Assembly: GCF_017833295.1 (NCBI RefSeq)
Contig: NZ_JAFIBW010000001.1
Location: 1,798,001 to 1,862,000 of the forward strand
Direction: 5' to 3'
DNA from: Methylobacterium sp. PvR107
GTDB taxonomy: Bacteria; Pseudomonadota; Alphaproteobacteria; Rhizobiales; Beijerinckiaceae
Length of the DNA: 64,000 bases
In this document: positions 13,809 to 30,321 of the stretch, piece by piece
Position numbering within the stretch: position 1 is the stretch's first letter
How the letters are laid out: every line of letters begins with the position of its first letter
Program-made: the position numbers and the translations under genes
The notes under the pieces: generated by a model
Told to the model about the DNA's origin: nothing
The model's database searches: none
What the model saw: the letters and a program-made list of their open reading frames with translations, nothing else

Positions 13809-14654
13809 TCAGCGCGTCGCAGGCGCGCCGGCGCTCGGGAAGAACAGCTGTTCGCCGCCGACCTTGTATCCCGCGATCGCCTGCTGGCCCTCCGGCGAGA
13901 CAAGCCAGTCGATGAAGGCCTGTCCCTGCTTTGCCTTCACGCCAGGGTGGCTGTCGGGGTTCACCAGCATCACGCCGTAGGGATTGAACAGGCTCCGGTC
14001 CCCCTGAACCAAGATGACCAGGTCGGCGCGATTCCTGAACGCGAGCCACGTCCCCCGGTCGGCGAGGATGTAGGCGCCGAGGGCCGAGGCCGCGTTGAGC
14101 GCAGGGCCCATGCCCTGGCCGACGTCCCGGTACCAAGGGCCGCGCACGGCCGCGAGATCGACGCCCGCCTCCTTCCAGCTGCGCAGTTCGGCGCTGTGTG
14201 TGCCCGAGCGGTCACCGCGCGACACGAACGCCGCCTCGCTGGCCGCGAGCTTGGCGAAGGCCTCGCGCACGCCCAGGCCGCGCACGCCGGCCGGGTCGGA
14301 GGCCGGGCCGATCAGCACGAAGTCGTTGTACATCACGTCGTACCGCGTCTTCGCGAAGCCCTCGGCGAGGAATTTGTCCTCGGCCGGACGGTCGTGCACC
14401 AGCACCACGTCGGCATCGCCGCGGCGCGCGGCGTCGAGCGCCTGGCCCGTGCCCAGAGCGACGACCTTCACGTCGATCCCTGATGTCTCCCGGAAGAGCG
14501 GGAGGATGTGCTTGAACAGCCCGGACTGCTCGGTCGAGGTCGTCGAGGCGACGACGATCGAGGTCGGTTCGGCGTCGGCCGGCGGCAGCCGGCCGGCCGC
14601 GCTCAGGAGCGCGGCCAATGCGAGGGTCAGGAGGCGACGACGGAAGGGGTCCAC
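13809..14654 (-). CDS. tupA: Tungstate ABC transporter substrate-binding protein
   Basis: 281 residues with a signal peptide (RRRLLTLALAALLSAAGRLP...ADA). The mature start IVVASTTSTEQSGLF carries the TTTS-type oxyanion motif that separates TupA from ModA; RYDVMYNDFVLIGP, FVSRGDRSGTHSAE and GAYILADRGTW are further TupA hallmarks. It captures tungstate in the periplasm for TupBC. The gene overlaps tupC by 28 bp and ends the tupB-tupC-tupA operon. WtpA/ModA is less likely because of these motifs. Tungsten use fits the neighbouring Fdh1. Confidence 0.9.
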   Translation of the reverse strand: MDPFRRRLLTLALAALLSAAGRLPPADAEPTSIVVASTTSTEQSGLFKHILPLFRETSGIDVKVVALGTGQALDAARRGDADVVLVHDRPAEDKFLAEGFAKTRYDVMYNDFVLIGPASDPAGVRGLGVREAFAKLAASEAAFVSRGDRSGTHSAELRSWKEAGVDLAAVRGPWYRDVGQGMGPALNAASALGAYILADRGTWLAFRNRADLVILVQGDRSLFNPYGVMLVNPDSHPGVKAKQGQAFIDWLVSPEGQQAIAGYKVGGEQLFFPSAGAPATR

Positions 14655-15337
14655 GGCAACTCCGCAGTGAGGTAGGCCCGCGCCTCGGACGTGCGGGGCG
14701 ACAGAAGGATCTGGCGGGCCGGACCATGCTCGACGGCGCGCCCGGACGCCAACACGATCGCCGTATCGGCGAGGCGCGCCACCTGCCCGAGATTGTGTGA
14801 GACGAGCACAACCGTGGTGGCTGCCCGCGCCATCGCGGACACCAGTCCCTCGACGATCTCGGTCGAGGCTGGGTCGAGGTTGGCGGTCGGCTCATCGAGG
14901 AGGAGCAGGCTGGGGCCGACCGCCCAGGCACGGGCTAGCGCCAGCCGCTGCTGCTCGCCGCCGGAGAGCCGCGTCGCGGGATCGCGGGCGCGCTGGGAGA
15001 GGCGGACAAGGGCGAGCGCTTCCTCGACCCGCGCGGCCCGCGCAGGACGGGGCAGGTTTCCGAGAGCCAGCGCGACGTTCGCGGCCGCGGTCGCGCGGAT
15101 CAGCGCCGGCCGCTGAAACACGAAGGCCCGCCGGTGCGGGCCGACCCGTACCGTTCCGCCGTCCGGCCGCAGGAGCCCGTCGATGACCCTCAGGGTGACG
15201 CTCTTGCCCGCTCCGTTAGGGCCGATGACGGCCGTGACGCTGCCCCGAGCGACCTCCAGGCAGAGACGGTCGAGAACCGTTCGCCCGTCCAGGGACAGTG
15301 TCACGTCCTCGAGGCGGATGGCCGGCGTCGCGCTCAT
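14627..15337 (-). CDS. tupC: Tungstate ABC transporter ATP-binding protein
   Basis: 236 residues from ATG 15337, whose ATGA overlaps the tupB stop. Walker A GPNGAGKSVTLRVIDGL, signature LSGGEQQRLALARAW, Walker B LLLLDEPTANLD, and the switch His in VLVSHNLGQVA are all present. The frame stays open far upstream (to 15961) but that part is antisense-like sequence over tupB, so the overlapping ATG is the start. It powers tungstate import with TupB. Confidence 0.93.
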   Translation of the reverse strand: MSATPAIRLEDVTLSLDGRTVLDRLCLEVARGSVTAVIGPNGAGKSVTLRVIDGLLRPDGGTVRVGPHRRAFVFQRPALIRATAAANVALALGNLPRPARAARVEEALALVRLSQRARDPATRLSGGEQQRLALARAWAVGPSLLLLDEPTANLDPASTEIVEGLVSAMARAATTVVLVSHNLGQVARLADTAIVLASGRAVEHGPARQILLSPRTSEARAYLTAELPWTPSVVAS

Positions 15338-16029
15338 CCATACACCCGCGCGGCGTGCCGGCGGAGCAGGGCCACGGCGACGTTCACCATCAGAACGAGG
15401 CCGATCAGCACCAGGCCGAGCGCCAGGGCGAGGCTGAGATCGCCCTTCTGGGTCTCCAGCGAGATCGCCGTCGTCATCGTGCGGGTATACCCGTCGATGT
15501 TCCCGCCGACGACGAGGACCGCTCCGATCTCCGAGATCGCCCGGCCGAACGCGGCGAGCGCCGCGGTCACCAGGGAGAAGCGCACGTCGTAGATGATCGC
15601 GCAGGCCTGACGCGGCGCGGAGAGCCCGAGGGAGCGCAACTGCTCCCCGAGATGCACCCGGGCGTCGGCGACGACCTGCTGTGTCAGGGCCGCGACGAGC
15701 GGCGTCGCGAGCGTCGCCTGTGCGGCGATCATCGCGCCGGGGGTGAACAGCAGGCCGAGCGGTCCGAGCGGACCGGAGCGGGAGAGGACGAGGTAGAGCG
15801 CGAGGCCGACGAGCACCGGCGGCAGCCCCATGAACACGTTCAGGATGCCGACCGCGGCGCTGCGTCCGGGAAATCGGGCGACAGCCACGAACGCACCCAG
15901 GGGTATGCCGAGCACGAGACCGATGCCGACGGCGCTGAGGCTGACACGCAGCGACAGCCACGCGATCGCCAGCACGTCCCGATCCAGACTGAACAGGCGG
16001 GACAGGATTTCCTGGAGCGTCTGCATCAT
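15334..16029 (-). CDS. tupB: Tungstate ABC transporter permease
   Basis: 231 residues, five to six membrane segments. The EAA loop that contacts the ATPase is visible around LGEQLRSLGLSAPRQACAI and the preceding ISEIGAVLVVGGNIDGYTRT is typical of TupB/ModB-type permeases. Two start Mets lie at 16029 and 16026. It is first gene of tupBCA and is divergent from moeA-like across 355 bp. Confidence 0.92.
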   Translation of the reverse strand: MMQTLQEILSRLFSLDRDVLAIAWLSLRVSLSAVGIGLVLGIPLGAFVAVARFPGRSAAVGILNVFMGLPPVLVGLALYLVLSRSGPLGPLGLLFTPGAMIAAQATLATPLVAALTQQVVADARVHLGEQLRSLGLSAPRQACAIIYDVRFSLVTAALAAFGRAISEIGAVLVVGGNIDGYTRTMTTAISLETQKGDLSLALALGLVLIGLVLMVNVAVALLRRHAARVYG

Positions 16030-16384
16030 GCGCCCGGGACGGGCCTTGGGAATGTGACGACGCGGAAGGCGAGGTCAGCCGATGAGTCCGACCTCGAAAC
16101 GCAGGTTCGGCCGAATGGACCTGTCATGCCTACCAGGGGAGCGCGTGCGGATAGTCGGTGAGCATATCGCCCGGGGCGACAATTGTCGTCTCGTCGGGAC
16201 GTTCGACGCGGCTATCGCTCCCCGTCATGGCTGTGAGCAAGCCCTCCCCTGTGCGGGGGCGCTCCAGGCAGAGCCGCACGTGTTCTCGCCGACGCGACTT
16301 CGTCCGGGGAGTCGAACGCGGCGCGCGCCGGGTCGACCGCCACGCCGCCCCTTGATCATCGAACCCGGATGGCGCATCGCCCCC
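16030..16384. promoter_or_regulatory. tupB/moeA-like divergent control region with 12-bp palindrome
   Basis: 355 bp without a gene. It includes a perfect palindrome, CGACAATTGTCG, at 16175-16186, a candidate operator shared by both divergent operons. I see no copy of the CGTTATA-N10-TATATCG site found at fdh1 and no convincing Moco/Tuco riboswitch fold, though one cannot be excluded by eye. Confidence 0.4.
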
Positions 16385-17479
16385 ATGATGATCCGGAATG
16401 CGTCCTCGGCGCTGATCCCGCTTCGGGAGGCGGCGAACCTGCTGAGCGGCGCGGCTGCTCCCGTCGCCCCCGCGACGGTCACGCTCGCAGCGGCGCTCGG
16501 GCGCGTAGCCGCAGGAGTGGTCATCGCGCGCTCCGCCGTGCCAGCCGGCCTGACGGCGATGCGGGACGGCTTCGCGGTCGAGGCCGCTTCGGTGGGCGGC
16601 GCGTCGGCCTATGCGCCGATCTTCCTGGGGCGGCCACCACCATGGGTCGAGGCCGGACAGCCGCTGCCGTCCGGCACCGATGCCGTCTTGCCCCCGGAGG
16701 GGTTTTTGGACGGCATGGTCGTCGCGGACATCGCCCCCCGGGAAGGTGTGTTCGGAACGGGCGACGACGTCGCTGGCAGCGAGAGGCTGATCGAGGCGGG
16801 CACCCGGATCGAGCCGCTTCACCTGCTCGTCCTGGAGGCGGTTGGCCTCACGGCGGTGGACGTCCGTCAGCCCCTCTTGCGCGTCGTCACCGCGGGGGCG
16901 ACCGGTCTCGATACCGTGTCGCCCCTGCTCGGGCGTCTGATCGCGCGGGCAGGCGCGGCGACCGAGGCGGTTCGCGTCCAGGGCGTCCGGGACATCGCCG
17001 AGGCCCTCCGCGGCGGCACGGCGGACGCGGTGCTGGTGATCGGGGGGAGCGGTTTCGGCCGCTCGGACCACAGCGCGGCGGCCCTCGCCCTCGCCGGAGA
17101 GGTCCGCGCGCACGGCATCGCGATGCGGCCTGGGGAAACCACCGCCGTCGGCTCCGCAGCCGGCAAGCCGGTTCTTCTGGTGCCCGGGCGTCCCGAGGCC
17201 GCGCTCGCCGCGTTCCTGGCCCTCGGCCGTCCTCTCATCGCACGGCTCGCCGGCGCGCAGGAAAGCCTGCCTCGGCGGCAGGTCCTTCTCCGGAAGATCG
17301 TCTCGTCGATCGGTCTGTCCGAGGTCGTCTTCGTCCGAAGCGGGCCGGATGGCGTGGAGCCGCTCGGTGGAGCCGGCCTGCCGCTCAGTCGGTTGGTGCA
17401 GGCGAACGGCATCGTCGTGGTCGAGCCGGACAGCGAAGGCTTCCGGGCCGGCGAGGAGGTAGAGGTTTGGGCCCTGTGA
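16385..17479 (+). CDS. Diverged MoeA-like molybdopterin-binding protein
   Basis: 364 residues from ATG 16385. The overall order follows MoeA (N-terminal SALIPLREAANLLSGAAAP, TAMRDGFAVEA, PLPSGTDAVLPPEG, C-terminal GKPVLLVPGRPEAALA), but key MoeA motifs have changed: the usual STGDEL region reads VTAGATGLDTV, and the SGGVSxGDxD loop reads IGGSGFGRSDHS. It may bind the pterin without full molybdate-insertion activity. It overlaps the following moeA-PBP gene by 4 bp (GTGA), so both are one operon, divergent from tupBCA. Confidence 0.75.
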   Translation: MMIRNASSALIPLREAANLLSGAAAPVAPATVTLAAALGRVAAGVVIARSAVPAGLTAMRDGFAVEAASVGGASAYAPIFLGRPPPWVEAGQPLPSGTDAVLPPEGFLDGMVVADIAPREGVFGTGDDVAGSERLIEAGTRIEPLHLLVLEAVGLTAVDVRQPLLRVVTAGATGLDTVSPLLGRLIARAGAATEAVRVQGVRDIAEALRGGTADAVLVIGGSGFGRSDHSAAALALAGEVRAHGIAMRPGETTAVGSAAGKPVLLVPGRPEAALAAFLALGRPLIARLAGAQESLPRRQVLLRKIVSSIGLSEVVFVRSGPDGVEPLGGAGLPLSRLVQANGIVVVEPDSEGFRAGEEVEVWAL

Positions 17480-19464
17480 GTGCCGACTCAGACCGTGACG
17501 GGGCGCCGGATTTCGCCGCGCGTCTCGCCGCGGCCTCGAGCCAGGAGCAGTTTCTCACGGTACTGAGCCGGGACGAGGCGCTCGCGCGGTTCCGGGCGGC
17601 GGTCCCGCACACGCGCCTGCCTTCGGAGGCGGTATCCTTGGAAGGAGCGCTCGGGCGCGTGCTCGCCCGCGACGTCGCCTCCCCGATGGATGTTCCGCCC
17701 TTCGACCGTTCCCTGGTCGACGGTTTCGCCCTGCGCGCGACCGACACGGAAGGTGCAGGGCCGGCGAGCCCGCGGCGCCTCACGCTGAACCGCGAGATCC
17801 TCGCCTGCGGCGTCGCGCCGACAATCGTCGTCCAGCCGGGAACGGCGACGCCGATCGCCACCGGCGGCATGATCCCGCGCGGTGCCGACGCCGTGGTGAT
17901 GGTCGAGCACTCGGAATTCGACGCCGGGAGCCTCGCCGTCGATGTCCTGACCGCGGTTCGGCCCGCGCAGTTCGTGGGCTATGCCGGCGCCGACATGGCC
18001 CGCGGCGAGACGGTGCTGCGCAAGGGCGCGCGGATCACCGCCCGCGAGATCGGCATGCTGGCGGCGTGTGGTCTCGCGGCCCTCGACGTCACCAGACGCC
18101 CGCGCGTCGCGGTCCTGTCCACGGGGGACGAGCTGGTCGCACCGGGCGAGCCCCTGCCCGAAGGCGCGATCTACGACTCCAACGGCGCGATCATCGCGGC
18201 CGCGGTGACGGAGAACGGCGGGGAACCGGTCCGGCTCGGGATCGTGCGCGACGAGGCTTCCGTCCTCGAGGCGGCCCTCCGGTCCGCCCTGCGGGACAAC
18301 GACCTCGTCGTGCTCTCGGGAGGCACGTCTAAAGGTGCCGGCGACGTCTCGCACCGTGTGCTGTCCCGCCTCGGCGAGCCGGGAATCCTGTTCCACGGCG
18401 TGGCCCTGAAGCCCGGGAAGCCGCTCTGCGTGGCGGTGTCGCAGGGAAGGCCGGTCATCGTCCTGCCGGGGTTCCCCACCTCCGCGATGTTCACCTTCCA
18501 CGACTTTGTCGTGCCGTACGTGCGGGCGCTTGCCGGGTTGCCTCCGCGGGAGGACGAGACGATCGCGGCGCGCGTGTCCCAACGGGTGCCCTCCGAGCTC
18601 GGTCGCACGGAGTTCGTGATGACCTCGCTCGCCCTCGGTCCCGAGGGTGCGATCGCCCTGCCGCTGCCGAAGGGCTCGGGCTCGGTGACCGCCTTCTCGC
18701 AGGCGGACGGGTTTTTCGCGGTTCCGGCCGCGCGCGCAGGCGTCGAGGCGGGAGAGGGCGTCGCCGTGGTTCGCCTGGGCGCCGGCGTACGGGCGCCCGA
18801 CCTGACGATCGTCGGCAGCCATTGCATTGGTCTGGACCGCGTGGTCGGCCTGCTCGCCGAGCGCGGCTACCGCGCCCGCACCATCTGGGTCGGGTCGGCC
18901 GGCGGCCTTGCCGCCCTGCGGCGCGGCGAATGCGATGTCGCCGCCATGCACCTCTTCGATCCCCAGACGGGCCGGTACAATGCCCCGTTCCTCACCGACG
19001 GCATGTCTCTCGCGCCCGGCTGGCGCCGCCTCCAGGGCGTCGTGTTCCGCCGGGGCGACGCCAGGTTCGACGGTCGCGACGCCGCGGACGCGGTCGCCTC
19101 AGCGCTCGCCGACCCCGACGCCGTGATGGTCAACCGCAACGCCGGATCGGGCACGCGCCTGCTCGTGGACGGCCTGCTGAACGGTGCCCGGCCGGCGGGG
19201 TTCTGGAACCAGCCGCGCTCGCACAACGCCGTCGCCGCGGCGGTCTCGCAAGGAAGGGCGGACTGGGGCGTGGCCATAGCGAGCGTCGCGGAGGCCTACG
19301 GGCTGGGCTTCCGTCCGCTGACGGAGGAGGCTTACGATCTGGCGTATCGCGCGCACGCCGAGGCCATGCCGGCGCTCGCGGCTTTCCTAAGGCTGCTCGG
19401 CGAGCCCGAGACGGCCGCGGCGCTGCGCGATCTGGGCTTCTCGCCCGCCGCCGAGACCTCGTGA
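17476..19464 (+). CDS. MoeA-PBP fusion: molybdopterin molybdenumtransferase with substrate-binding-like domain
   Basis: 662 residues from a GTG overlapping the previous stop. Residues about 20-410 are a complete MoeA (PPFDRSLVDGFALRA, ATGGMIPRGADAVVMVEHS, STGDELVAPGEPLPEGA, SGGTSKGAGD, LPGFPTSAMFTF). Residues about 430-650 are a periplasmic-binding-like domain without signal peptide (TIVGSHCIGLDRVVGLL, VMVNRNAGSGTRLLVDGLL, HNAVAAAVSQGRADWGVAI), as in PBP_like/PF12727 proteins. Such a cytosolic domain could bind the oxyanion or cofactor for insertion. Its place between tup and fdh1 suggests loading of the Fdh1 metal. Confidence 0.88.
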   Translation: MSADSDRDGAPDFAARLAAASSQEQFLTVLSRDEALARFRAAVPHTRLPSEAVSLEGALGRVLARDVASPMDVPPFDRSLVDGFALRATDTEGAGPASPRRLTLNREILACGVAPTIVVQPGTATPIATGGMIPRGADAVVMVEHSEFDAGSLAVDVLTAVRPAQFVGYAGADMARGETVLRKGARITAREIGMLAACGLAALDVTRRPRVAVLSTGDELVAPGEPLPEGAIYDSNGAIIAAAVTENGGEPVRLGIVRDEASVLEAALRSALRDNDLVVLSGGTSKGAGDVSHRVLSRLGEPGILFHGVALKPGKPLCVAVSQGRPVIVLPGFPTSAMFTFHDFVVPYVRALAGLPPREDETIAARVSQRVPSELGRTEFVMTSLALGPEGAIALPLPKGSGSVTAFSQADGFFAVPAARAGVEAGEGVAVVRLGAGVRAPDLTIVGSHCIGLDRVVGLLAERGYRARTIWVGSAGGLAALRRGECDVAAMHLFDPQTGRYNAPFLTDGMSLAPGWRRLQGVVFRRGDARFDGRDAADAVASALADPDAVMVNRNAGSGTRLLVDGLLNGARPAGFWNQPRSHNAVAAAVSQGRADWGVAIASVAEAYGLGFRPLTEEAYDLAYRAHAEAMPALAAFLRLLGEPETAAALRDLGFSPAAETS

Positions 19465-19515: not shown

Positions 19516-19995
19516 ATGCCGTGGACCCAAGTCGATGAACGGAGACGGACAATCCTGTCGGCCGCCGGGATGATCGACGATGCCGTTTCGCGTAGGGACG
19601 CCTGCGAGGCGCTGAGGCCTCCAGCGAAGCGGCGGTGTGCGTTGGGCGAGGACACGAGCATCAGTTTGCGGATCGAGCTCGGCTCGGACACCCTGCTGGG
19701 ACCGGGCAAGGCCGCACTCCTGAGCGGCATCCGCGACACCGGCTCCATCGCCGCCGCGGGGCGACGGATGGGCATGAGCTACAAGCGAGCCTGGTACCTC
19801 ATCGATACGTTAAACAAGGCGTTCCAGGAGCCGCTCGTCTCAGCGAGCAAGGGGGGACGCCGAGGCGGCGGCGCTATCCTGACGCGCACGGGCGATGCCA
19901 TCCTCGACAGTTACCTGCGCATGGAGCGGCTCGCCTCGGAGGCCGTGGCGGGCGAACTCGACCTTCTCGCTTCGCTGATGAAGCCCGATTCCTAG
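19516..19995 (+). CDS. ModE-like winged-helix regulator lacking the TOBE/molbindin domain
   Basis: At most 159 residues. The core from about residue 50 is the ModE/LysR-type DNA-binding domain: LGPGKAALLSGIRDTGSIAA, GRRMGMSYKRAWYLIDTLN and KGGRRGGGAILT. The C-terminal molybdate-binding molbindin domains of full ModE are absent, so it may sense through another partner. The start is uncertain: ATG 19516, ATG 19570 or TTG 19642 are in frame and none has a good ribosome site. It follows moeA-PBP by 52 bp and probably acts on the Mo-box-like sites at 25408 and 27403. Confidence 0.78.
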   Translation: MPWTQVDERRRTILSAAGMIDDAVSRRDACEALRPPAKRRCALGEDTSISLRIELGSDTLLGPGKAALLSGIRDTGSIAAAGRRMGMSYKRAWYLIDTLNKAFQEPLVSASKGGRRGGGAILTRTGDAILDSYLRMERLASEAVAGELDLLASLMKPDS

Positions 19996-20184: not shown

Positions 20185-23157
20185 CTACTCGGCGGCCATG
20201 GGCGTCGCGTGGACGGCGGAGACCCGGGCCGCGCAGAACTTGAACTCCGGGATCTTGCCCATCGGGTCGAGCGCCGGGTTCGTCAGCAGGTTGGCCGCGG
20301 CCTCGGCGTAGCAGAACGGCATGAAGATCATGCCGGCCGGTACGTCGCGGTCAGAGCGCACCTTCAGATGGACGGCGCCGCGGCGCGTCTCCAGCTTCAT
20401 CGTATCGCCGGGCTCCAGCCCGAGCCGGTAGAGCTCCTTCGGAGCCAAGAAGGCGACCGCCTCGGGCTCCAGCGCGTCGAGGACGCCGGCGCGCCGGGTC
20501 ATCGATCCGGTGTGCCAGTGCTCGAGGACGCGGCCGGTCGACAGGACCATCGGGTAGTCGTCGTCCGGCAACTCGTCCGGGGGCACCACGGCGGCCGGGA
20601 CGATCTTCGCGCGCCCGCTCTCCGTGGGGAAGCCGGCGTAGAAGATGATCTCGTTGCCGGGCTTGTCCGGGGCGTCGACCGGGTAGGTCACGGCGCCCTC
20701 GCGCTCCAGGCGCTCCCAGGTGATGTTGTTGAACGACGGCATCACCATGGCCATCTCGCGGAAGATGTCCGCCGGGCCCCCGTAGTTCCAGGGCAGGCCG
20801 AGGCGCTTCCCCAGTTCCTGGATGATCCACCAGTCCTGCCGCGCGTCGCCCGGCGGCGACACCACCGGCCGCGAGATCTGCACGCGGCGGTCGGTGTTGG
20901 TGAAGGTGCCGGCCTTCTCGGCGAAGGCGGAGGCCGGCAGCACCACGTCGGCGTGGAAGGCGGTCTCCGTGAGGAACAGGTCCTGCACGACGAGGTGGTC
21001 GAGCATCGCCAGGGCGTGCCGGGCGTGGTTCAGGTCGGGGTCGGACATCGCCGGGTTCTCGCCCTCGACGAACATGCCCTTGATCTCGCCGGCGTGGATC
21101 GCCCGCATGATCTCGACCACGGTGAGGCCCTTCTGCGGGTCGAGCTTCTGGCCCCAGAACTCCTCGAACATCTCCCGCACCGCGGCCTTCTCGACCGACT
21201 GATAGTCCGGATAGACCATCGGGATCAGGCCGGCGTCGGAGGCGCCCTGGACGTTGTTCTGACCGCGCAGCGGATGCAGGCCGGTGCCCGGACGCCCGAT
21301 CTGCCCCGTGATGAGGGCGAGCGCGATCAGGCAGCGCGAGTTGTCCGTGCCGTGGACGTGCTGGCTGATGCCCATGCCCCAGAAGATGATCGAGGACTTG
21401 GCGCGGGCGTAGAGCCGGGCGACCTCGCGCAGGGTCTCCGCGTCGATGCCGCAGACCGAGGACATTTTCTCCGGCGTGAACTCGACGATCTTCTCCTTCA
21501 GCGCCTCGAAGTTCTCGGTGTAGCCGGCGATGTACTGCTCGTCGTAGAGCCGCTCCTCGACGATCACGTTGAGCATCGCGTTGAGCATCGCGACGTCCGA
21601 ACCGGGCTTGAACGCGAGGTGCTTGTAGGCGTGCCGCGACAGCACCTGCCGGCGCGGGTCCATGACGATCAGCTTGGCGCCGCGCTGCTTCACGGCGTTC
21701 TTGAGGAAGGTCGCCGCCACGGGGTGGTTCACGGTCGGGTTGGCGCCGATCACGATGATGACCTCGGCGTCGAGCGCCGCCGAGAACGGCGCCGACACGG
21801 CGCCCGAGTTCAGGCCCTCCATGAGGGCGGCCACCGACGAGGCGTGGCACAGCCGCGTGCAGTGGTCGACATTGTTCGAGCCGAACCCGAGCCGCACCAG
21901 CTTCTGGAAGAGGTAGGCCTCCTCGTTCGAGCCTTTCGCGGAGCCGAAGCCGGCGAGTGCCTTGCGGCCATGCGTGTCGCGGACCGTCTTGAGGCCGCCG
22001 GCGGCGCGGTCGAGCGCCTCCTCCCAGGTCGCCTCGCGGAAGTGCGTCCACGGGTTGGCCGGGTCGACCTGGTCGTTGGCGTCCTTCCGAACGTTGTCCA
22101 GGCGGATCAGCGGCGCCGTCAGGCGGTGGGGGTGGTGGACGTAGTCGAAGCCGAACCGCCCCTTCACGCAGAGCCGGTTGTGGTTGGCCGGGCCGTCCAC
22201 GCCCTCGGCGTAGACGATCTTCTCATCCTTCACCTTGTAGGAGACTTGGCAGCCGACGCCGCAATAGGGGCACAGCGAGGTCACCTCGCGGTCGGGATAG
22301 ACCGTCCGGGTGTTGTGCTCGGCGTCGAGATAGGCGGACGGCATCAGCGCGCCGGTCGGACAGGCCTGGACGCACTCGCCACAGGCCACGCAGGTCGAGC
22401 CGCCCATCGGGTCGTCGAAGTCGAACACGATCTTGGCGTCAGCCGAGCGGTAGGCCATGCCGATCACGTCGTTGACCTGGACTTCGCGGCAGGCGCGGAC
22501 GCAGAGATTGCACTGGATGCAGGCGTCGAGATTGACGCTCATGGCCGGGTGGCTGAAGTCGCCGGTCCAGCGCTCGGCCGCGGGGAAGCGGCTCTCGGAG
22601 ACGTCGAGGAAGTCAGCCTGAACCCAGAAGTGCGATGTCGGGTCGTGCGAGGTCTCGCGCTCGGGCTGGTCGGCCACGAGCAGTTCGAGCACCATGGCGC
22701 GCGCCTTGGTGGCGCGCTCGGTCGCAGTCTTGACCTTCATGCCCACGGCCGGCGTGCGCTTGCACGAGGCGGCCAGCACGCGCTCGCCCTCGATCTCGAC
22801 CATGCAGGCGCGGCAATTGCCGTCCGGGCGGTAGCCGGGTTCGGGCTTGTGGCAGAGGTGCGGGATATGGGTGCCGAGGCGCTTGGCGACGGCCCAGATC
22901 GTCTCGCCGGGGCCGGCCTCAACCTGCTGTCCGTCGAGCTCGAACGCGATGGTCGGCGGTGCGCTCGGGCGCTCCGTCAGATTGTGCAGGCCCGACGGCT
23001 CCGGTGCCGCCTGGCCGCCCGCCTTCGCTCCTTCCGAGTAGGAGCCGCCGGCCTCCGGCTTCGGGCCCTGCGCGGGGCCGCCTGCATCCTGCAGACCGTC
23101 GGCCCGGATCTCAGTCTTCTCGGTCTTGTCGCCGTGCTGTTCGGGGGCGTTGCTCAT
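20185..23157 (-). CDS. fdh1A: NAD-dependent formate dehydrogenase alpha subunit (tungsten/molybdenum)
   Basis: 990 residues. An acidic/glycine-rich N-terminal extension (1-65) precedes a 2Fe-2S ferredoxin domain (C102, C115, C118, C132), two 4Fe-4S sets (C213/C216/C219/C223 and C256/C259/C262/C266) and the catalytic-domain cluster (C296/C299/C303/C330). In DHCTRLCHASSVAAL the metal ligand is Cys437, not selenocysteine. The bis-MGD domain and the C-terminal FMPFCYAEAAANLLT segment complete it. It oxidises formate to CO2 in the cytosol with Fdh1B as NAD-reducing partner. The match to Methylobacterium Fdh1 and adjacent tupABC argue for tungsten. Confidence 0.95.
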   Translation of the reverse strand: MSNAPEQHGDKTEKTEIRADGLQDAGGPAQGPKPEAGGSYSEGAKAGGQAAPEPSGLHNLTERPSAPPTIAFELDGQQVEAGPGETIWAVAKRLGTHIPHLCHKPEPGYRPDGNCRACMVEIEGERVLAASCKRTPAVGMKVKTATERATKARAMVLELLVADQPERETSHDPTSHFWVQADFLDVSESRFPAAERWTGDFSHPAMSVNLDACIQCNLCVRACREVQVNDVIGMAYRSADAKIVFDFDDPMGGSTCVACGECVQACPTGALMPSAYLDAEHNTRTVYPDREVTSLCPYCGVGCQVSYKVKDEKIVYAEGVDGPANHNRLCVKGRFGFDYVHHPHRLTAPLIRLDNVRKDANDQVDPANPWTHFREATWEEALDRAAGGLKTVRDTHGRKALAGFGSAKGSNEEAYLFQKLVRLGFGSNNVDHCTRLCHASSVAALMEGLNSGAVSAPFSAALDAEVIIVIGANPTVNHPVAATFLKNAVKQRGAKLIVMDPRRQVLSRHAYKHLAFKPGSDVAMLNAMLNVIVEERLYDEQYIAGYTENFEALKEKIVEFTPEKMSSVCGIDAETLREVARLYARAKSSIIFWGMGISQHVHGTDNSRCLIALALITGQIGRPGTGLHPLRGQNNVQGASDAGLIPMVYPDYQSVEKAAVREMFEEFWGQKLDPQKGLTVVEIMRAIHAGEIKGMFVEGENPAMSDPDLNHARHALAMLDHLVVQDLFLTETAFHADVVLPASAFAEKAGTFTNTDRRVQISRPVVSPPGDARQDWWIIQELGKRLGLPWNYGGPADIFREMAMVMPSFNNITWERLEREGAVTYPVDAPDKPGNEIIFYAGFPTESGRAKIVPAAVVPPDELPDDDYPMVLSTGRVLEHWHTGSMTRRAGVLDALEPEAVAFLAPKELYRLGLEPGDTMKLETRRGAVHLKVRSDRDVPAGMIFMPFCYAEAAANLLTNPALDPMGKIPEFKFCAARVSAVHATPMAAE

Positions 23158-23212: not shown

Positions 23213-24931
23213 TCACTCCGCCGCCGCGGCGCGCGGGGCGGGGAACAGATCCGGGAAATACTTGATGACGGTGCTCAGCGGGTTCGAGGCCGCTTGGCCG
23301 AGGCCGCAGATCGAGGCGTCCCGCATGCACTGGGACAGCTCGCCCAGGAGCTCGGTGTCCCAGACGCCCTGCTCCATCAGGATACGGGCCTTCTGGGTCC
23401 CCGAACGGCAGGGGGTGCACTGCCCGCAGCTCTCGTCCTCGAAGAACCTCATCAGGTTCAACGCGGCGCCGCGCACATCGTCCCGGTCCGACAGGATCAC
23501 GACGGCGGCGGACCCGATGAAGCAGCCGTACTTCTCCAGCGTCCCGAAATCGAGCGGGATGTCGTTCATCGACGCCGGCAGGATGCCGCCCGACGCGCCG
23601 CCCGGCAGGTAGCCCGCGAAGGTGTGGCCGTCCGCCATGCCGCCGCAATACTCGTCGATGAGTTCCTGGATGGTGAGGCCGGCCGGACCGAGCTTCACGC
23701 CCGGTTCCTTCACGCGCCCCGAGACCGAGTAGGAGCGCAGTCCGACGCGGTCGTTGCGGCCGTGGCTCTTCCACCAATCGCCGCCCCGCTCGATCAGGTC
23801 GCGGACCCAGAACAGCGTCTCGATGTTGTTGATCAGCGTCGGACGGTTGAACAGGCCGACTTGGAACGGGAACGGCGGCTTGTGCCGCGGCAGCCCGCGC
23901 TTGCCTTCGAGGGACTCGATCAGCGAGGATTCCTCGCCGCAGATGTAGGCGCCAGCGCCGCGGCGCAGGTGGATGCGCGGGCCGCCCTCGGGGAGCTTCG
24001 CGATCTCGCGCGTCAGGATCTCGCGGGAGATGGGGTACTCGTCCCGCAGGTAGATGTAGACCTCGGGCGCCTCGACGACGTGGGCGCCGATCAGCATGCC
24101 TTCGAGGAAGCGGTGCGGATCGGTGTTGAGGTAGAGCTGGTCCTTGAAGGTGCCGGGCTCGCCCTCGTCCCCGTTGACCGCCATCAGCCGGGGCCCGGGC
24201 TCGCCGCGCACCGAGCGCCACTTGCGCCCCGTCGGGAAGCCCGCGCCGCCGAGGCCGCGCAGGCCGCCGTCGTCGAGCACCTTCAGGATGTCGTCGACCG
24301 GTAGGTCACCGCTGCGGAGCCGGTCCAGGGTCGCGTACCCTCCGGCAGCCCGATAGGCCTCATAGTCGACGTAGTCCGGGATGTGAGCGTGCGTGTCGCC
24401 GGCCTCGACCGCGGCCGTCACGGATGCGAGGTCGGCCTTGTGCAGGAAGTTGTGCCCGACCTCGACGGCGGGCGCGTGGTCGCAAAGCCCGACGCAGGGC
24501 GCGCGCACGACGCGGACGGCGTCGGAGGCGAGTTCCCGCTGGAGCGTCTCGAGCAATTCCTCGGCGCCGAACATCGCGCAGGTGATGCTGTCGCAGACCC
24601 GGACGGTCAGCCTCGGGATGGAGGCGTCACCCTCCTTCACGACGTCGAAATGCGCGTAGAAGGTCGCGGTCTCGAACACCTCGGCGAAGGCCAGGGCCAT
24701 CTCGTCGGCTAGCGCCGCCAAATGCTCGGCGCTGATCTGGCCGTAGGTGTCCTGGATCAGGTGGAGGTGCTCGATGAGCAGGTCGCGCTGGCGCGAGCTG
24801 GAGCCGAGAAGCTCCTCGATCTCGACCTTCGCCCGCGGCTCGACCTGGCGCCCTTTGGGTACGCTGCGCGCTTTGTTCCGCCCCCGGCCGGGATGCGAGA
24901 AGGTCCTGACTGTCCCCGGTGCCTCACTCAT
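23213..24931 (-). CDS. fdh1B: NAD-dependent formate dehydrogenase beta subunit (NuoE-NuoF fusion)
   Basis: 572 residues. Residues about 40-180 are NuoE-like with a 2Fe-2S site (C113, C118, C146, C150); about 200-570 are NuoF-like, with the FMN/NADH segment GGLRGLGGAGFPTGRKW, GDEGEPGTFKDQ, YICGEESSLIESLEGKRG and the 4Fe-4S motif DESCGQCTPCRSGT plus SICGLG. It takes electrons from Fdh1A through Fe-S centres to FMN and NAD. It lies 55 bp upstream of fdh1A and 62 bp downstream of a small unknown gene, all on one strand. Confidence 0.95.
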   Translation of the reverse strand: MSEAPGTVRTFSHPGRGRNKARSVPKGRQVEPRAKVEIEELLGSSSRQRDLLIEHLHLIQDTYGQISAEHLAALADEMALAFAEVFETATFYAHFDVVKEGDASIPRLTVRVCDSITCAMFGAEELLETLQRELASDAVRVVRAPCVGLCDHAPAVEVGHNFLHKADLASVTAAVEAGDTHAHIPDYVDYEAYRAAGGYATLDRLRSGDLPVDDILKVLDDGGLRGLGGAGFPTGRKWRSVRGEPGPRLMAVNGDEGEPGTFKDQLYLNTDPHRFLEGMLIGAHVVEAPEVYIYLRDEYPISREILTREIAKLPEGGPRIHLRRGAGAYICGEESSLIESLEGKRGLPRHKPPFPFQVGLFNRPTLINNIETLFWVRDLIERGGDWWKSHGRNDRVGLRSYSVSGRVKEPGVKLGPAGLTIQELIDEYCGGMADGHTFAGYLPGGASGGILPASMNDIPLDFGTLEKYGCFIGSAAVVILSDRDDVRGAALNLMRFFEDESCGQCTPCRSGTQKARILMEQGVWDTELLGELSQCMRDASICGLGQAASNPLSTVIKYFPDLFPAPRAAAAE

Positions 24932-24993: not shown

Positions 24994-25314
24994 TTACTGG
25001 CCGCCGAAGGCCCGGAGCGGCTGGCCGGCCTCGGACCGGTGTTTCATCGCGACGGCTCTCGTGACCTCGTCCAGGGACGTGACCCTGGGCCCAACGACGG
25101 AGCGGAGCTCGGTCTCGAACGCGTCCAGCGCGTCGTTCAAGCGGTCCATCAGAGCGTTCGGGGCGTCTGCGGCCGGTGAAGCGATCGCTTTCGCGAGCGC
25201 GTCGCGCACTCGGTCGGTGAGCTCCTGCGTGAGCGGTGGTTTCGCTTCGGCGTAGTAGGCGTCCGTCACGATGGTGGCCCAGTCCGCCGCAGAGGATGCG
25301 TCACCCATGTTCAT
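24994..25314 (-). CDS. Small conserved protein upstream of fdh1B (paralogue of 28329-28655)
   Basis: 106 residues from ATG 25314 (MGDASS at 25308 is the alternative). It is helical and charged, with the conserved blocks DAYYAEAKPPLTQEL, VVGPRVTSLDE and the C-terminal HRSEAGQPLRAFGGQ. A paralogue 3 kb away shares 14 of the last 16 residues. No signal peptide, membrane segment or metal motif. It begins 94 bp from a Mo-box-like site and precedes fdh1BA in the same direction, so it is probably the first gene of the fdh1 operon. It is not the FdsD-type delta subunit by sequence. Family not recognised. Confidence 0.75.
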   Translation of the reverse strand: MNMGDASSAADWATIVTDAYYAEAKPPLTQELTDRVRDALAKAIASPAADAPNALMDRLNDALDAFETELRSVVGPRVTSLDEVTRAVAMKHRSEAGQPLRAFGGQ

Positions 25315-25407
25315 GCCTGCGCGATCGAGGGAAGGTTGAAGTCGTGCATGGCGTGCCCGTTCGGGTCCATTGGCGTGGCGTTCGCTCGTGGCATACCAAA
25401 TGGCAGC

Positions 25408-25431
25408 CGTTATAGCGGAGGTGTTATATCG
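25408..25431. promoter_or_regulatory. Mo-box-like ModE operator 1
   Basis: CGTTATAG - 8 bp - TTATATCG, 24 bp in all, the length of known ModE Mo-boxes (CGnTATATA-N6-TATATnnCG). It lies between the fdh1 small gene (94 bp) and mobB (about 95-130 bp). On the minus strand TTGAAA stands 15 bp before a TATAAC that overlaps the site, so it would cover the -10 region of the fdh1 promoter. A second site of the same design is at 27403-27426. Confidence 0.65.
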
Positions 25432-25558
25432 TTTTTGAAGGCGTTTCAATTTGCACGGGGCCGCGGTCACGCGTCCCGGCGGCGTGGCTGATGCTTGCCC
25501 TGAGCCATCGAGCGGGGCAGTGGAAATGTCACGAGAGCGGTGGTCAGTGGTGTCCGGC

Positions 25559-26077
25559 ATGCGCGTTATCGGACTGGCCGGGTGGAGCGGGGCTGGCAAG
25601 ACCAACCTGCTGGTTCGGGCCATCCCCGTGCTCGTCGCGCGCGGGGTGAAGGTGGCGACCATCAAGCACGCCCACCACGACTTCGACACGGACTGGCCCG
25701 GGAAGGATTCTTACGAGCACCGCAGGGCGGGGGCGAGCGAGGTTCTCGTATCGTCGGGCCGGCGGTGGGCGCAGGTCCGCGAGCTGCGCGACGAGGCGGA
25801 AGCGACCCTGGGTCAGCTCCTGCGGCGGATCAGCCCCTGCGACCTCATCGTCGTGGAAGGGTACAAGCGGGAGCCGATCCCCAAGATCGAGGTTTATCGC
25901 GCCAACAACGGCCGCCCACCCATACATCCTCTGGACACCACGATTGCGGGCATCGCGAGCGACGTCGAATTTCCGACATCGGGCATTCCCGTCGTAGATT
26001 TGAACGACGCGGCGGCGGTGACGGGGCTGATGCTCGACGTGGCCGTTTCCTTCGAAGACGTCCTCGGGAGGCTCTAG
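25559..26077 (+). CDS. mobB: Molybdopterin-guanine dinucleotide biosynthesis adaptor (P-loop GTPase)
   Basis: 172 residues from ATG 25559, which directly precedes VIGLAGWSGAGKTNLL, the Walker A segment that opens MobB proteins; an in-frame ATG at 25526 is the alternative. Also seen: VKVATIKHAHHDFDTDWPGK, DSYEHRRAGASEVLVSS and CDLIVVEGYKREPIPKIEV. MobB binds GTP and assists MobA in making the bis-MGD cofactor that Fdh1A needs. The moeA gene starts 4 bp after its stop. It is divergent from the fdh1 operon across Mo-box-like site 1. Confidence 0.92.
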   Translation: MRVIGLAGWSGAGKTNLLVRAIPVLVARGVKVATIKHAHHDFDTDWPGKDSYEHRRAGASEVLVSSGRRWAQVRELRDEAEATLGQLLRRISPCDLIVVEGYKREPIPKIEVYRANNGRPPIHPLDTTIAGIASDVEFPTSGIPVVDLNDAAAVTGLMLDVAVSFEDVLGRL

Positions 26078-26081
26078 CCGG

Positions 26082-27338
26082 ATGGCCCAGCTCAGCGACG
26101 ACTGCTTCGCGTTCGGCGGCCCTCTGATGACCATCGAGGAGGCGCACGCATTGTTCGGCGAGCGGCTCGTGGCGGTCGTCGGCACCGAGGACGTTCCCGT
26201 CTCGGACGCCGATGGACGCATCCTGGCCGAGGATTGCGTTGCGCCCATCGACGTCCCGCCGTTCTCCAACTCGGCCGTCGACGGCTACGCGGTCCGTTTC
26301 ACGGACCTGCGCGCCTCCGATGCGACAATCCTGCCGGTCGGCGCGGTCGTCGCGGCCGGCGGCTCGTCCGAAGGCGTGTCGATGGCGGGCTCTGCCACCC
26401 GGATCTTCACCGGGGCCCCGATGCCGGCGGAGGCCGACACCGTCTTCATGCAGGAGGACGTCCACGTCCTGCCCGACGGCCGGGTGTCCTTGCCGCTCGG
26501 GCTGAAGCGGGGCGCCAACAGCCGCGACGCCGGCGAGGACGCGGCGAAGGGCTCGTCGATCATCCCGGCCGGCCGGCGTCTGCGGCCGCAGGACTTGGCT
26601 CTGGCGACCGCGGTCGGCCTGCGCACGCTGAAGGTTCGTCGCACCCTGCGGGTCGGCGTGTTCTCGACAGGCAACGAGCTCGCCGCGCCGGGGGCGCCCT
26701 TGAGGCCGGGCGCGATCTACGACTCGAACCGCGTCCTGCTGCTCGCTCTTCTCCGGCGGATGGGCGTCGCGGCGCGTGATCTCGGCATTATCCGTGACGA
26801 CCCGGCGGCACTCGCGGCGCGGCTCTCGGCGGCGGCCGCCGAGCATGACGTGATCCTGACTTCGGGCGGCGTGTCGACCGGCGACGAGGATCACGTGAAG
26901 ACCGCCGTCGAGACCATCGGCCGCCTCGTGTTCTGGAGGCTGGGGATCAAGCCGGGACGGCCGATCGCGATGGGCATGATCGACGGCAAGCCGTTCCTGG
27001 GCCTGCCGGGCAACCCGGTGGCTGTCTACGTCACCCTGGTGTTCGTCGTCCGGCCTCTCCTCGCCCGGCTCGCCGGCGCGGCTCACGCGCCGCCGCTCGG
27101 ATTCACCGTCAGGGCGGCGTTCTCCTATCGGAAGCGCGCGGGGCGCAGGGAGTTCGTGAGGGCCAGCCTCGCTCAGGACGCCGACGGCACCTGGGAAGCC
27201 CGGAAGTTCCCCCGCGACGGCGCGGGAATGCTGTCGTCGCTCACCGAGACCGACGGCCTCGTGGAACTGGAGGAGAGCCGGATCGAGGTCGTGCCGGGCG
27301 ACGTCGTGCGGTTCCACCCGCACGAAGCCCTTTGGTAG
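26082..27338 (+). CDS. moeA: Molybdopterin molybdenumtransferase
   Basis: 418 residues, canonical length and motifs: DVPPFSNSAVDGYAVRF, RIFTGAPMPAEADTVFMQED, FSTGNELAAPGAPLRPGA, TSGGVSTGDEDHVK and GLPGNPVAVYVTLVFV. It inserts molybdate or tungstate into adenylylated molybdopterin. It is translationally close to mobB. This is the third MoeA-like gene in 11 kb and the most conventional one, so it is the likely housekeeping enzyme, with the two others near tup being specialised. Confidence 0.93.
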   Translation: MAQLSDDCFAFGGPLMTIEEAHALFGERLVAVVGTEDVPVSDADGRILAEDCVAPIDVPPFSNSAVDGYAVRFTDLRASDATILPVGAVVAAGGSSEGVSMAGSATRIFTGAPMPAEADTVFMQEDVHVLPDGRVSLPLGLKRGANSRDAGEDAAKGSSIIPAGRRLRPQDLALATAVGLRTLKVRRTLRVGVFSTGNELAAPGAPLRPGAIYDSNRVLLLALLRRMGVAARDLGIIRDDPAALAARLSAAAAEHDVILTSGGVSTGDEDHVKTAVETIGRLVFWRLGIKPGRPIAMGMIDGKPFLGLPGNPVAVYVTLVFVVRPLLARLAGAAHAPPLGFTVRAAFSYRKRAGRREFVRASLAQDADGTWEARKFPRDGAGMLSSLTETDGLVELEESRIEVVPGDVVRFHPHEALW

Positions 27339-27402
27339 CGAAGCTGTACTCAGCGCCTCGCCAGACACAGACCGGGCTGGAGCATTGCCGGGCTCGGGCT
27401 TC

Positions 27403-27426
27403 CGTTATATCAAATCTGCTATATCG
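27403..27426. promoter_or_regulatory. Mo-box-like ModE operator 2
   Basis: CGTTATAT - 8 bp - CTATATCG, the same 24-bp architecture as the site at 25408 (consensus CGTTATAK-N8-YTATATCG). It sits 50 bp upstream of the avidin-like gene and 64 bp after moeA ends, so the gene it controls is almost certainly the avidin-like one. Confidence 0.65.
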
Positions 27427-27476
27427 CTTGTGACTGGCCGTGCGAACGGCCGCTCGATCGGCGGGCGTGGGCAACA

Positions 27477-27830
27477 ATGTTCGATGGTGTCTGGCGGAGC
27501 CAAGCAGGCGCGGAGCTTCGCCTCCTCCAGATGGGCGAGGCCGTCTCCGGAACCTACACCGCCGCCAATCCCGGTTTTGCGCACACGCATCGAAGCCGCA
27601 TCCTAGTCGGCACGGCCGAGGGCGACATCATCGGCTTCGTAACCAGCACGTCTTCGCCACAGGAAATCACGGCCTGGACAGGGCGCCTCGTCCGCGCCGA
27701 CGAAAAGACTGCCGAGGAGATCCACGCGGTCTTCCATGCCGTCGAACGGTGTTCGCAGCCGCAGGCCGTGGACAGTCACATCGCGCTAGAAACGACCGTC
27801 TTCTCAAAGGTCGAGAACGCCTGTTCATGA
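27477..27830 (+). CDS. Avidin/streptavidin-like beta-barrel protein
   Basis: 117 residues. The order of avidin signatures is visible: GVWRSQAGAELRL (strand 1, Trp6), GEAVSGTYTAA (Tyr27), a GDIIGFV strand, ITAWTGRL (Trp67, matching streptavidin TTWSGQ) and C-terminal TTVFSKV (matching DTFTKV). Several biotin contacts differ: streptavidin Asn23, Ser27, Trp108, Trp120 and Asp128 align with Ser, Ala, Val, a polar residue and Thr. There is no signal peptide, so it should be cytosolic. Biotin binding is therefore doubtful. The Mo-box-like site 50 bp upstream ties it to the cofactor regulon. Family assignment is by motif only. Confidence 0.65.
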   Translation: MFDGVWRSQAGAELRLLQMGEAVSGTYTAANPGFAHTHRSRILVGTAEGDIIGFVTSTSSPQEITAWTGRLVRADEKTAEEIHAVFHAVERCSQPQAVDSHIALETTVFSKVENACS

Positions 27831-28328
27831 AGGCAACGCCGCTTCCATCCTCGATAGCGTCCTGAGAAACGGGCGCGACACCGGAACGAGGAGCGGTCGG
27901 CGCATCGATTGCCGACAAAGATCGGGCTTCCGGTTCGTCCGCCCTCCCGTCATCGTGGCATCGGGTACGCGAATGGCCGGAATAGGCGCGCATCGGCCGC
28001 CTGGAACCGGCCCGAAGCGGATGATCCCCCGCTGGCCATTCTCATGTCGGCGGCCGTCAACGTCAGCTGCCCTGGCGCGCAAGCCTATCGCTCACCGTAA
28101 CCCGGACGAGAACAGGCGCGGGTCGGCTGCCCCCTTCGGGTTAAGTCGCCTCTCGAGAATTGCGAGAAGCTGTACGGTTCGTACCGCGTTTTAGTTTCGT
28201 CGCGGTACCTCTGTTGTAGCCAAGAGCTGGTTTCGGCTCACGATCAGTGTATTAGATCTCCAATGCAGGTGTAATTACTCAGGTCCAATCTGAATATTGA
28301 GTGCATTTCGAGACACGAGGGAGGGCGC
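27831..28328. other. 498-bp intergenic region
   Basis: No gene seen on either strand. The last 130 bp are AT-richer and probably hold the promoter of the following small gene; a loose GTATTA/TAATTAC dyad near 28248-28278 is the only structure noted. Confidence 0.35.
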
Positions 28329-28655
28329 ATGGGCACACACCCTGGTCGAACGACAGACGAGTGGGCCGGCATCATCAGCGAGGCGTATGCTGCTAAAACA
28401 CGGCCACCATTGACACGCCAACTCGTGAAGGAGGTTCGTCAGGTGATCGCCGAGGCGCTTCGGGAAGCAGAGGCAGCGAACAGCCCGGACAGTGAATGGT
28501 GCGAGCGCGTCAACCTCGTTCTGGATCGCAGCGAGATGTCGCTCCATGCAGCCGTGGGTCCTCGGCTTGCCGCGATCGATGATGCTGCAGGAACGGCCGT
28601 GATGATGCACCGTTCGGAAGCGGGACGACCCTTGCGCGCCTTCGGCGGGCAATAG
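28329..28655 (+). CDS. Small conserved protein, paralogue of 24994-25314
   Basis: 108 residues from ATG 28329, preceded by GGGAGG at good spacing. It shares SEAYAAKTRPPLTRQL, VGPRLAAIDD and the terminal HRSEAGRPLRAFGGQ with the protein in front of fdh1B; middle regions differ. The two copies bracket the mobB-moeA-avidin-like block in opposite orientations. The strictly kept C-terminus suggests a docking or partner-binding tail. No known family. Confidence 0.75.
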   Translation: MGTHPGRTTDEWAGIISEAYAAKTRPPLTRQLVKEVRQVIAEALREAEAANSPDSEWCERVNLVLDRSEMSLHAAVGPRLAAIDDAAGTAVMMHRSEAGRPLRAFGGQ

Positions 28656-28733
28656 CCAATGCGACACGGGGTGCGCCTGTACGGATCGACGGCGTTTCAT
28701 AGGCAGCAACACGGGAGCGGCGGGAGCGAGACC

Positions 28734-29354
28734 ATGAGTTCCGTGAATGAGGTGTGTGAGGTCACCGGTCCCGGTCCGGCATGGCCAGCCGCCAATGCGG
28801 ATTGGCCGACGATCCGTGACTGGCGCAAGGAAACCCGGGAGGGACTGATCGCGCGGCGTACCAGCATCTCGGCTGAGGATCGGTCCGCCTGGAGCGAGAG
28901 GATCAGCCGGGCCCTGGAAGCGGCTCTTGAGCCGTACGCCGGCAGACTGATTGGCTTCTACTGGCCGTTCCGCGGCGAGTATGATCCCCGAGCCGTTCTC
29001 ACCGCGATGCGGGAGCGCGGCTCACGCCTTGCTCTGCCGGTGATCGTCGAGCGCGGGCAGCCGCTCGTCTTTCGTGAGTGGTCCCCTGGCAGCCTGATGG
29101 TGCAAGGAACTTGGAAAATCCCGATGCCTGAATCGGGCGAGGCAGTCTTCCCGGACCTCCTCGTGGTGCCGCTGGTTGGGTTTGATAGGCAGGGCTACCG
29201 GCTCGGCTATGGCGGCGGGTTTTACGACCGGACGATTGCCGCAATGCCGGAGAGGCCACGCACCATTGGCGTCGGATTCGAACTCGGACGCCTGGAAACG
29301 ATCTGCCCGCAGTCGCACGACATTCCGCTGGAGCGGATTATCACGGAGCGGTGA
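28734..29354 (+). CDS. 5-formyltetrahydrofolate cyclo-ligase
   Basis: 206 residues from ATG 28734 (an open frame reaches back to 28659 but that part is unlike the family). The ATP-dependent enzyme converts 5-formyl-THF to 5,10-methenyl-THF. Visible: DWRKETREGLIARRTSIS, IGFYWPFRGEYDPRAVL, LALPVIVERGQPLVFREW, FPDLLVVPLVGFDRQGYRLG and the signature GYGGGFYDRTIA. In a methylotroph this feeds the folate branch linking formate to serine-cycle carbon, in keeping with the formate genes next door. Confidence 0.92.
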   Translation: MSSVNEVCEVTGPGPAWPAANADWPTIRDWRKETREGLIARRTSISAEDRSAWSERISRALEAALEPYAGRLIGFYWPFRGEYDPRAVLTAMRERGSRLALPVIVERGQPLVFREWSPGSLMVQGTWKIPMPESGEAVFPDLLVVPLVGFDRQGYRLGYGGGFYDRTIAAMPERPRTIGVGFELGRLETICPQSHDIPLERIITER

Positions 29355-29867
29355 CATCACCTCACCAGCCGATTTTCGACTGGGCCGATCGTTTAAAATG
29401 ACCGAGGTTACTTGTCGAAGGTGCCGGTGATTAATGACGCCGACCCTCCGATGTTCTGAAGGCGGTCGCGGTCTGCCTTCATCGCCTTACAGGATCTCGC
29501 GGACTTGAGGCGCATGCGAGGGGAGACTTGGACCGTCGATATCCTCTATTAAAGCGCCTTCCGGAAGCGTTAGCCGCCCTGCCCTGACAAGGGAGCCCTA
29601 TGCGGACCATTGCAATGGATCAAAGCTTGGCCGAATCAACACCAAGGGTCGGCAGCTAGGCCGCGCCTTTAGATCTCGCTTGCCGCTGAGGCCTGAGTCG
29701 ATCGGTCGAGATGCCGAAGCTCGATATCCATTGCTGGCGCATGCTTACGGAGCTGACGCAAGTCGCTGCGGTGCGCTGCCCGCGTATGCGAGCCGAGCGT
29801 GCTGGTGGGATCAATGGTGGGGCGGACAGCCGATATTTGCGAAAAATGCTGCTCAATCAATTGTGTC
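29355..29867. other. 513-bp intergenic region before the tRNA genes
   Basis: No supported gene. Short open frames on both strands lack family matches and ribosome sites. Confidence 0.3.
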
Positions 29868-29957
29868 TGGCGGAAGGGGTGGGATTCGAACCCACGGTGG
29901 AGTTGCCCCCACGGCGGTTTTCAAGACCGCTGCCTTAAACCACTCGGCCACCCTTCC
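29868..29957 (-). tRNA. tRNA-Ser (UGA anticodon)
   Basis: The minus strand folds as a class II tRNA: acceptor GGAAGGG paired with CCCCTTCC, anticodon loop CTTGAAA (anticodon UGA), a long variable arm, T-arm GTGGGTTCGAATCCCAC, and an encoded CCA (29870-29868). Confidence 0.95.
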
Positions 29958-30134
29958 CGGCGGATTCCGCGACTGCACGGTTACGGCCCCGGAAGAGGGT
30001 GCGTCAACCGGAGATCGAGCGGTTGACCTCCCGGAACATTCCGCCTATCTCACCGGCCACGCCGGAAGCTGCGGAATGCAGCTCGGGCGGCGCCCACCCG
30101 TCCGCGTGACAGACGGGTCGGGCCTACGGCCGAT

Positions 30135-30208: not shown

Positions 30209-30321
30209 CCTGAGTTCCTAAGTCATTCTGATCGCTGAGCATTAGGTCGCGCCGCACTGCGGTGGGGCCCCCTGCTACACACCGCTGCTACATAGGCCGC
30301 CCCCGGCGGCGAAGGAGCGGT

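Follow-up and report, generated by a model that had tools for sequence, protein, structure and literature searches.

An avidin-like protein at the locus

The stretch of DNA analysed here (the window) comprises 64,000 nucleotides (nt) of Methylobacterium sp. PvR107 and contains, at 27477..27830 on the plus strand, a gene for a 117-residue protein with the avidin fold, identified from its open reading frame (ORF), a match to the Pfam avidin family PF01382, a predicted barrel and an alignment of the pocket. A perfect palindromic ModE-type operator (Mo-box), CGTTATATCAAATCTGCTATATCG, lies at 27403..27426 and ends 50 nt before the ATG of this gene, and the surrounding genes form a molybdenum/tungsten (Mo/W) cofactor cluster of the make-up TupAB-like / moeA / modE / fdhAB / mobB / moeA. 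A preliminary description of the sequence had pointed to a Mo-box-like site 50 bp ahead of the gene and to this setting, and both were confirmed.

The protein scored 30 bits against the PF01382 profile, above the gathering score of 24 (31.6 bits for the homologue in M. extorquens CM4), and is the sole match to that profile in its own genome (6.36 Mb, one contig). No NCBIfam model matched it; RefSeq labels its orthologues 'avidin/streptavidin family protein'. The avidin order of motifs that had been described (GxWxSQxG, GTY, ITAWTG, TVFSKV) was found as GVWRSQAG, GTY, ITAWTG and TVFSKV, and the predicted model is an eight-stranded avidin barrel, as the preliminary description had expected. Profile, motif order and barrel are thus common to this protein and the PF01382 avidins zebavidin, xenavidin, afifavidin and shwanavidin. 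Because strand 1 of the model starts at residue 4, there is no room for a signal peptide, in agreement with the earlier claim that none is present, and the protein is probably cytosolic. The ratio of nonsynonymous to synonymous substitution rates (dN/dS) was 0.05-0.41 over the 33 pairs tried, indicating purifying selection on the gene; together with the PF01382 match, this ruled out a chance ORF.

We read residue equivalents through a profile-to-xenavidin alignment and compared the 18 relatives found in the genus at twelve biotin-contact positions, given here by what we take to be their streptavidin numbers. In the 117-residue protein the equivalents of Asn23, Ser27, Trp108 and Asp128 are S8, A12, H87 and T107, those of Leu25, Ser45, Trp79 and Ser88 are A10, A29, T58 and E63, and Tyr43 (Y27), Thr90 (T65) and Trp92 (W67) are retained. 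The equivalent of Trp120 is lost as well, since none of the 18 members has a Trp beyond residue 67, so that all five losses named in the preliminary description (Asn23, Ser27, Trp108, Trp120 and Asp128) stood. No contact other than the equivalents of Tyr43 and Trp92 is conserved in 18/18; that of Thr90 is retained in 11/18. Most biotin hydrogen-bonding residues and three of the four tryptophans are lost in the family, and the conserved positions include the pocket equivalents W67, Y27 and H/Q87. The 18 members therefore lack most of the conserved contacts of biotin-binding avidins: the family is an avidin by descent and fold and, judged by its residues, not a biotin-binding one.

The operator upstream of the gene

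Mo-boxes were searched as CGNTATA-N10-TATANCG, which we take to be the consensus, with the reversed motif as control. The 6.36-Mb genome contains two perfect sites, about 2 kb apart and both in the avidin/fdh cluster, the second lying at 25408..25431, where the fdhBA unit and mobB-moeA diverge. A second-order Markov sequence made from the window (1.28 Mb) gave no site with at most one mismatch. Across 111 Methylobacterium genomes we found 30 perfect sites in 21 genomes, versus 11 for the reversed control. Ten stand before the avidin-like gene, nine in the fdhBA/mobB region and ten in modE/modA/DUF2325 loci; a DUF2325 gene stands about 4 kb from the thirtieth, which belongs to genome G035. Because the motif recurs beside modE and modA, it is very probably the ModE operator.

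An upstream site with at most one mismatch was present in 18/18 members of the family (ten perfect, eight with one mismatch), and it ends 45-60 nt before the ATG in 17 of them. The exception is locus L039, where the site is 173 nt from the avidin-like gene, in the stretch that this gene has in common with fdhBA. When ten upstream regions were aligned, every run of at least two invariant columns fell in the half-sites, and the operator is retained across at least five gene arrangements. No Mo-box was found upstream of the two classical avidins of the genus (L043, L044).

Consensus searches for a sigma-70-type promoter or a terminator gave none in 27300-28000, and Rfam at its gathering threshold returned two tRNAs only in 14000-32000, with no RNA element in the 5' region. 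A hairpin, GGCCGT-GCGA-ACGGCC, lies at 27436-27451 between the Mo-box and the ATG and by eye is kept, with changes, in seven near relatives.

Neighbours and distribution of the family

The gene directly ahead of the operator, at 26082..27338 (plus strand), encodes a MoeA molybdopterin metal insertase whose neighbourhood resembles that of moeA1 of M. extorquens, making it a putative orthologue. It follows mobB (25541..26077, plus strand, start approximate), which passed its cut-off and bears this RefSeq name in M. radiotolerans. On the minus strand stand a small ORF of about 105 residues (24994..25335, start approximate), the NuoE/NuoF-like formate dehydrogenase subunit gene fdhB (23213..24931, no model over cut-off) and fdhA for the alpha subunit (20185..23157, TIGR01591 over cut-off). 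Farther away are modE (19516..19995, plus strand), a gene for a MoeA-type molybdopterin biosynthesis protein with a C-terminal extension (17500..19464, plus strand, start approximate, PRK14498 over cut-off), a second MoeA-like gene (16370..17479, plus strand, start approximate), an ABC permease gene (15334..16029, minus strand) and a substrate-binding protein gene (13809..14654, minus strand). Whereas fdhA, mobB and the MoeA-type gene exceed their cut-offs, the permease (TupB-like) and the binding protein (TupA-like, TupA being its best family) have TupB and TupA as best or near-best named families and fall below the equivalog cut-offs; for that reason we can only infer the transported metal.

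The window ModE comprises a DNA-binding domain only: HTH_1 (PF00126) was its sole match and no molbindin domain was found. It shares 69% identity over 107 residues with the modE beside modA in L090, and the modE genes that we read beside modA encode about 110-145 residues. Its genome has five TOBE matches, two of which (G000:C1:212777 and 6119643) read as molbindins, with no sensor-bearing ModE among these two; the remaining three lie in frames of 388-392 residues.

The small ORF at 24994-25335 (minus strand) has a paralogue of about 105 residues at 28329-28655 (plus strand), both ending HRSEAGxPLRAFGGQ and neither with a family above cut-off. The former type directly precedes fdhB in each locus of the W-type formate dehydrogenase (FDH1) that we read; the latter precedes an ORF that by eye resembles 5-formyltetrahydrofolate cyclo-ligase. 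At 44871-45560 (minus strand) the window also holds a weak modA-like match to the modA of L098 (27% over 238 residues, E 4e-8).

The homologues bear out the linkage to Mo/W and formate dehydrogenase genes that had been suggested, with the operator in all 18 members and Mo/W or formate dehydrogenase genes as recurring neighbours. Eight genomes, the window included, share the order fdhA-fdhB-small ORF, operator, mobB, moeA, operator, avidin-like gene; the second operator has one mismatch in L029, and in M. radiotolerans this cluster is located on plasmid pMRAD01. Elsewhere the gene adjoins mobB on the opposite strand (L033), lies downstream of mobB on the same strand (L035, where mobB was matched in three pieces, and L038), is divergent from the fdhBA unit (L039, L040), stands near modE, DUF2325, DUF2478 and a metal-independent NAD formate dehydrogenase (NAD-FDH; L034, L036, L037), sits beside NAD-FDH (L041) or lies at a contig end (L042). 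Plasmid pCMU01 of M. extorquens CM4 represents the modE-type arrangement and has the order TonB receptor, avidin-like gene, DUF2478, DUF2325, winged-helix protein, molybdotransferase, modABC; the avidin-like gene, absent from the record's feature table, has a perfect operator, and the TonB receptor, DUF2478 and DUF2325 genes have one-mismatch operators. Linkage by shared descent of a single locus was set aside, as the gene occurs in varied contexts (after moeA, adjacent to mobB in either orientation, transcribed away from fdhBA, within the modE-moeA-modABC locus of a plasmid and next to NAD-FDH), of which few represent independent moves because the tree groups contexts by clade.

As controls we used the fdhBA loci of 15 of the 28 FDH1 genomes without the avidin-like gene and of three carriers with FDH1 elsewhere (G107, G044, G012), taking about 9.5 kb beside fdhBA (7.4 kb for G107, 4.2 kb for G102). 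In these 18 loci tblastn detected no mobB or moeA beside fdhBA and there was no perfect operator (0/18); a one-mismatch site preceded the small ORF in six, of which five belong to the 15. Thus fdhBA was seen with a perfect operator or an adjoining mobB only where the avidin-like gene is nearby.

Full members occur in 18/111 Methylobacterium genomes, a count that leaves out L043 and L044 (classical avidins), L045 (a 32-residue fragment) and P0012-P0016, proteins tied to no genome of the set. The family profile found 16 proteins at E <=0.01 among 924 candidates; the seven that carry organism names are all Methylobacterium or Methylorubrum, and the weakest, P0017, resembles a classical avidin. 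Among 397 sampled genomes of the order, four had matches (G000, G018, G059, G402), that in G059 being a classical avidin and that in G402, a genome of another family, reaching E 2e-8. Phage records gave no match. The tree unites the 18 genome members with P0013-P0015 in a single clade versus three classical avidins (100/98, long branches), the members at FDH1 loci group with P0013 (97/96), and L041, L042, P0014 and P0015 form a separate group (98/97). Genome G103 contains a second, decayed 32-residue piece of the gene beside a 34-residue modE piece (L045:7345-7605).

With kinship ignored, FDH1 is present in 16/18 carriers versus 28/93 non-carriers (Fisher p 4e-6), NAD-FDH in 7/18 versus 7/93 (p 0.0016), and one or both in 18/18 versus 34/93 (p 2e-7). 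Since 28/44 genomes with FDH1 lack the gene, and since in L034, L036, L037 and L041 it is near NAD-FDH instead of the W-type enzyme, a role as general maturation factor of W-type formate dehydrogenase is ruled out; the protein is an accessory.

The NAD-FDH genes (2-hydroxyacid dehydrogenase family, named by eye), each accompanied by a LysR-type regulator, are L034:9391-10557, L041:9362-10528, L109:4179-5366 and L110:7016-8203. Those of L034, L109 and L110 lie within or close to modE loci, which suggests a metal-sparing switch between formate dehydrogenases. A 125-residue protein without NCBIfam match is encoded beside modE at L109:6806-7183, L110:5199-5576 and L101:1046-1420, with a perfect Mo-box 80-95 nt upstream. 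One-mismatch Mo-boxes stand 180 and 18 nt upstream of the DUF2478 (9395-9907) and DUF2325 (11403-12656) genes of L131, making these genes possible ModE regulon members.

A possible place in molybdenum and tungsten metabolism

Unlike classical avidins, then, the Methylobacterium family has exchanged most biotin contacts, lacks a signal peptide, stands behind a ModE-type operator and is linked to Mo/W and formate dehydrogenase genes. It is a conserved branch of the avidin family that is very probably part of the Mo/W regulon, and its protein probably serves in metal or metal-cofactor handling and not in biotin binding. The overall reading, a cytosolic avidin with a remodelled pocket that is controlled by ModE and acts in the Mo/W economy around formate dehydrogenases, we regard as evenly balanced between right and wrong; its base, namely fold, family, biotin-contact loss, the operator with its conservation, and linkage, is computed.

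Several observations weigh against this reading. The structural model was built on 13 sequences only, and the biotin contacts are lost unevenly, as 4/18 members have Asn at position 8 and 2/18 have Asp at 107. No sensor domain was detected in the cluster ModE, so the metal response is not supplied by this modE itself. Single one-mismatch sites are weaker evidence than perfect ones, and the genome has two such sites within or close to unrelated genes; with up to two mismatches allowed it has 36 places versus 38 for the reversed control, and such weak matches therefore carry no meaning. As the consensus search gave no sigma-70 promoter at the gene, an overlap of the operator with a -10 element is a guess. 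Finally, the avidin-like gene is missing from 28/44 FDH1 genomes, and the family is patchy (18/111 genomes, 4/72,556 plasmid records), a distribution that would also suit an optional or mobile trait.

In the mechanism that we propose, the ModE (molybdate/tungstate) regulon of Methylobacterium would have acquired an avidin barrel whose biotin site was swapped for another pocket. With Mo in ample supply, ModE would repress the gene: a -10 element might coincide with the right half-site of the operator, and this overlap, together with the position of the motif before modA and the TonB receptor gene, suggests repression under Mo sufficiency. The protein would then be made at low Mo or W, or during use of the W or metal-free route. 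Least certain is the ligand. It may be a small molecule from Mo/W metabolism, with molybdopterin or a metal-pterin/oxyanion intermediate as the likeliest candidates, which the protein would buffer or carry in the company of MoeA and MobB, as an optional helper and not an essential maturation factor. In its full form, a cytosolic barrel that binds molybdopterin or a metal-pterin intermediate, is made only at Mo/W shortage and buffers the cofactor as the cell changes over among W-, Mo- and metal-free formate dehydrogenases, the proposal is doubtful.

Other roles can be set beside it. The barrel might be a protein-protein or oligomerisation module without a small ligand, for example a partner of the stand-alone ModE, of MoeA or of MobB. 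Such a partner would fit the short modE genes beside modA and the HTH-only match of the window ModE; however, ModE loci without the avidin-like gene are common (G007, the modA locus of G015, G034, G067, G080, G088, G089, G092) and the conserved W67, Y27 and H/Q87 suit a ligand, and we hold this possibility to be rather unlikely, if worth keeping in mind. That the protein is a degenerate or weak biotin binder, brought into the regulon by a chance plasmid rearrangement, appears improbable: its Pfam and RefSeq assignments, the invariant Tyr43 and Trp92 equivalents and the plasmid location of some homologues agree with it, whereas the operator kept in every member through at least five arrangements, the purifying selection and the extensive loss of hydrogen-bonding residues and tryptophans do not. 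An optional accessory for a different ligand, such as a metallophore-type Mo/W chelate imported under starvation, would account for the TonB-dependent receptor gene of pCMU01, about 4 kb from the avidin-like gene with its one-mismatch Mo-box about 70 nt upstream, and for the same receptor in L034 and, in part, L036. Yet the avidin-like protein has no export signal, and no relative of the receptor was found in 14 W-type loci (16-18 kb) or in the window, and we give this explanation little credence.

The proteobacterial ModE regulon covers modABC, moa and molybdoenzymes. The system proposed here resembles it in its palindromic operator, in the modE within the locus and in the Mo genes alongside, and differs from it in including an avidin-fold gene and in a regulator without a detected molbindin domain. 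Molybdate and the molybdenum cofactor are also bound by small soluble proteins, the molbindins (Mop/TOBE) and cofactor carrier proteins; their role may be analogous, although their folds are not known to be related to the avidin barrel. According to PMC13197769, both MoeA1 and MobB of M. extorquens AM1 are specific for W, and moeA1-mobB are placed with tupBCA. The window has a set similar to that W-cofactor pathway (MoeA1, MobB, FdhD), with moeA-mobB-tup genes and FDH1; the term 'avidin' does not occur in the main text of that paper. Records CP001298-1300 of M. extorquens were used in a neighbourhood analysis (PMC8033661) whose main text contains no word starting 'molybd', and among the papers listed in literature searches, titles and abstract openings revealed no link between an avidin-like protein and Mo/W.

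This family offers a clear cue, in its conserved operator and recurring neighbours, to the still unsettled native role of bacterial avidins. If a pterin or oxyanion is bound, the protein would be a new kind of Mo/W-cofactor binder in bacteria that have W-type formate dehydrogenase, which is under study for the reduction of CO2. It would also be an avidin variant of natural origin with an altered ligand, its fold converted from biotin capture to the buffering of Mo/W cofactor.
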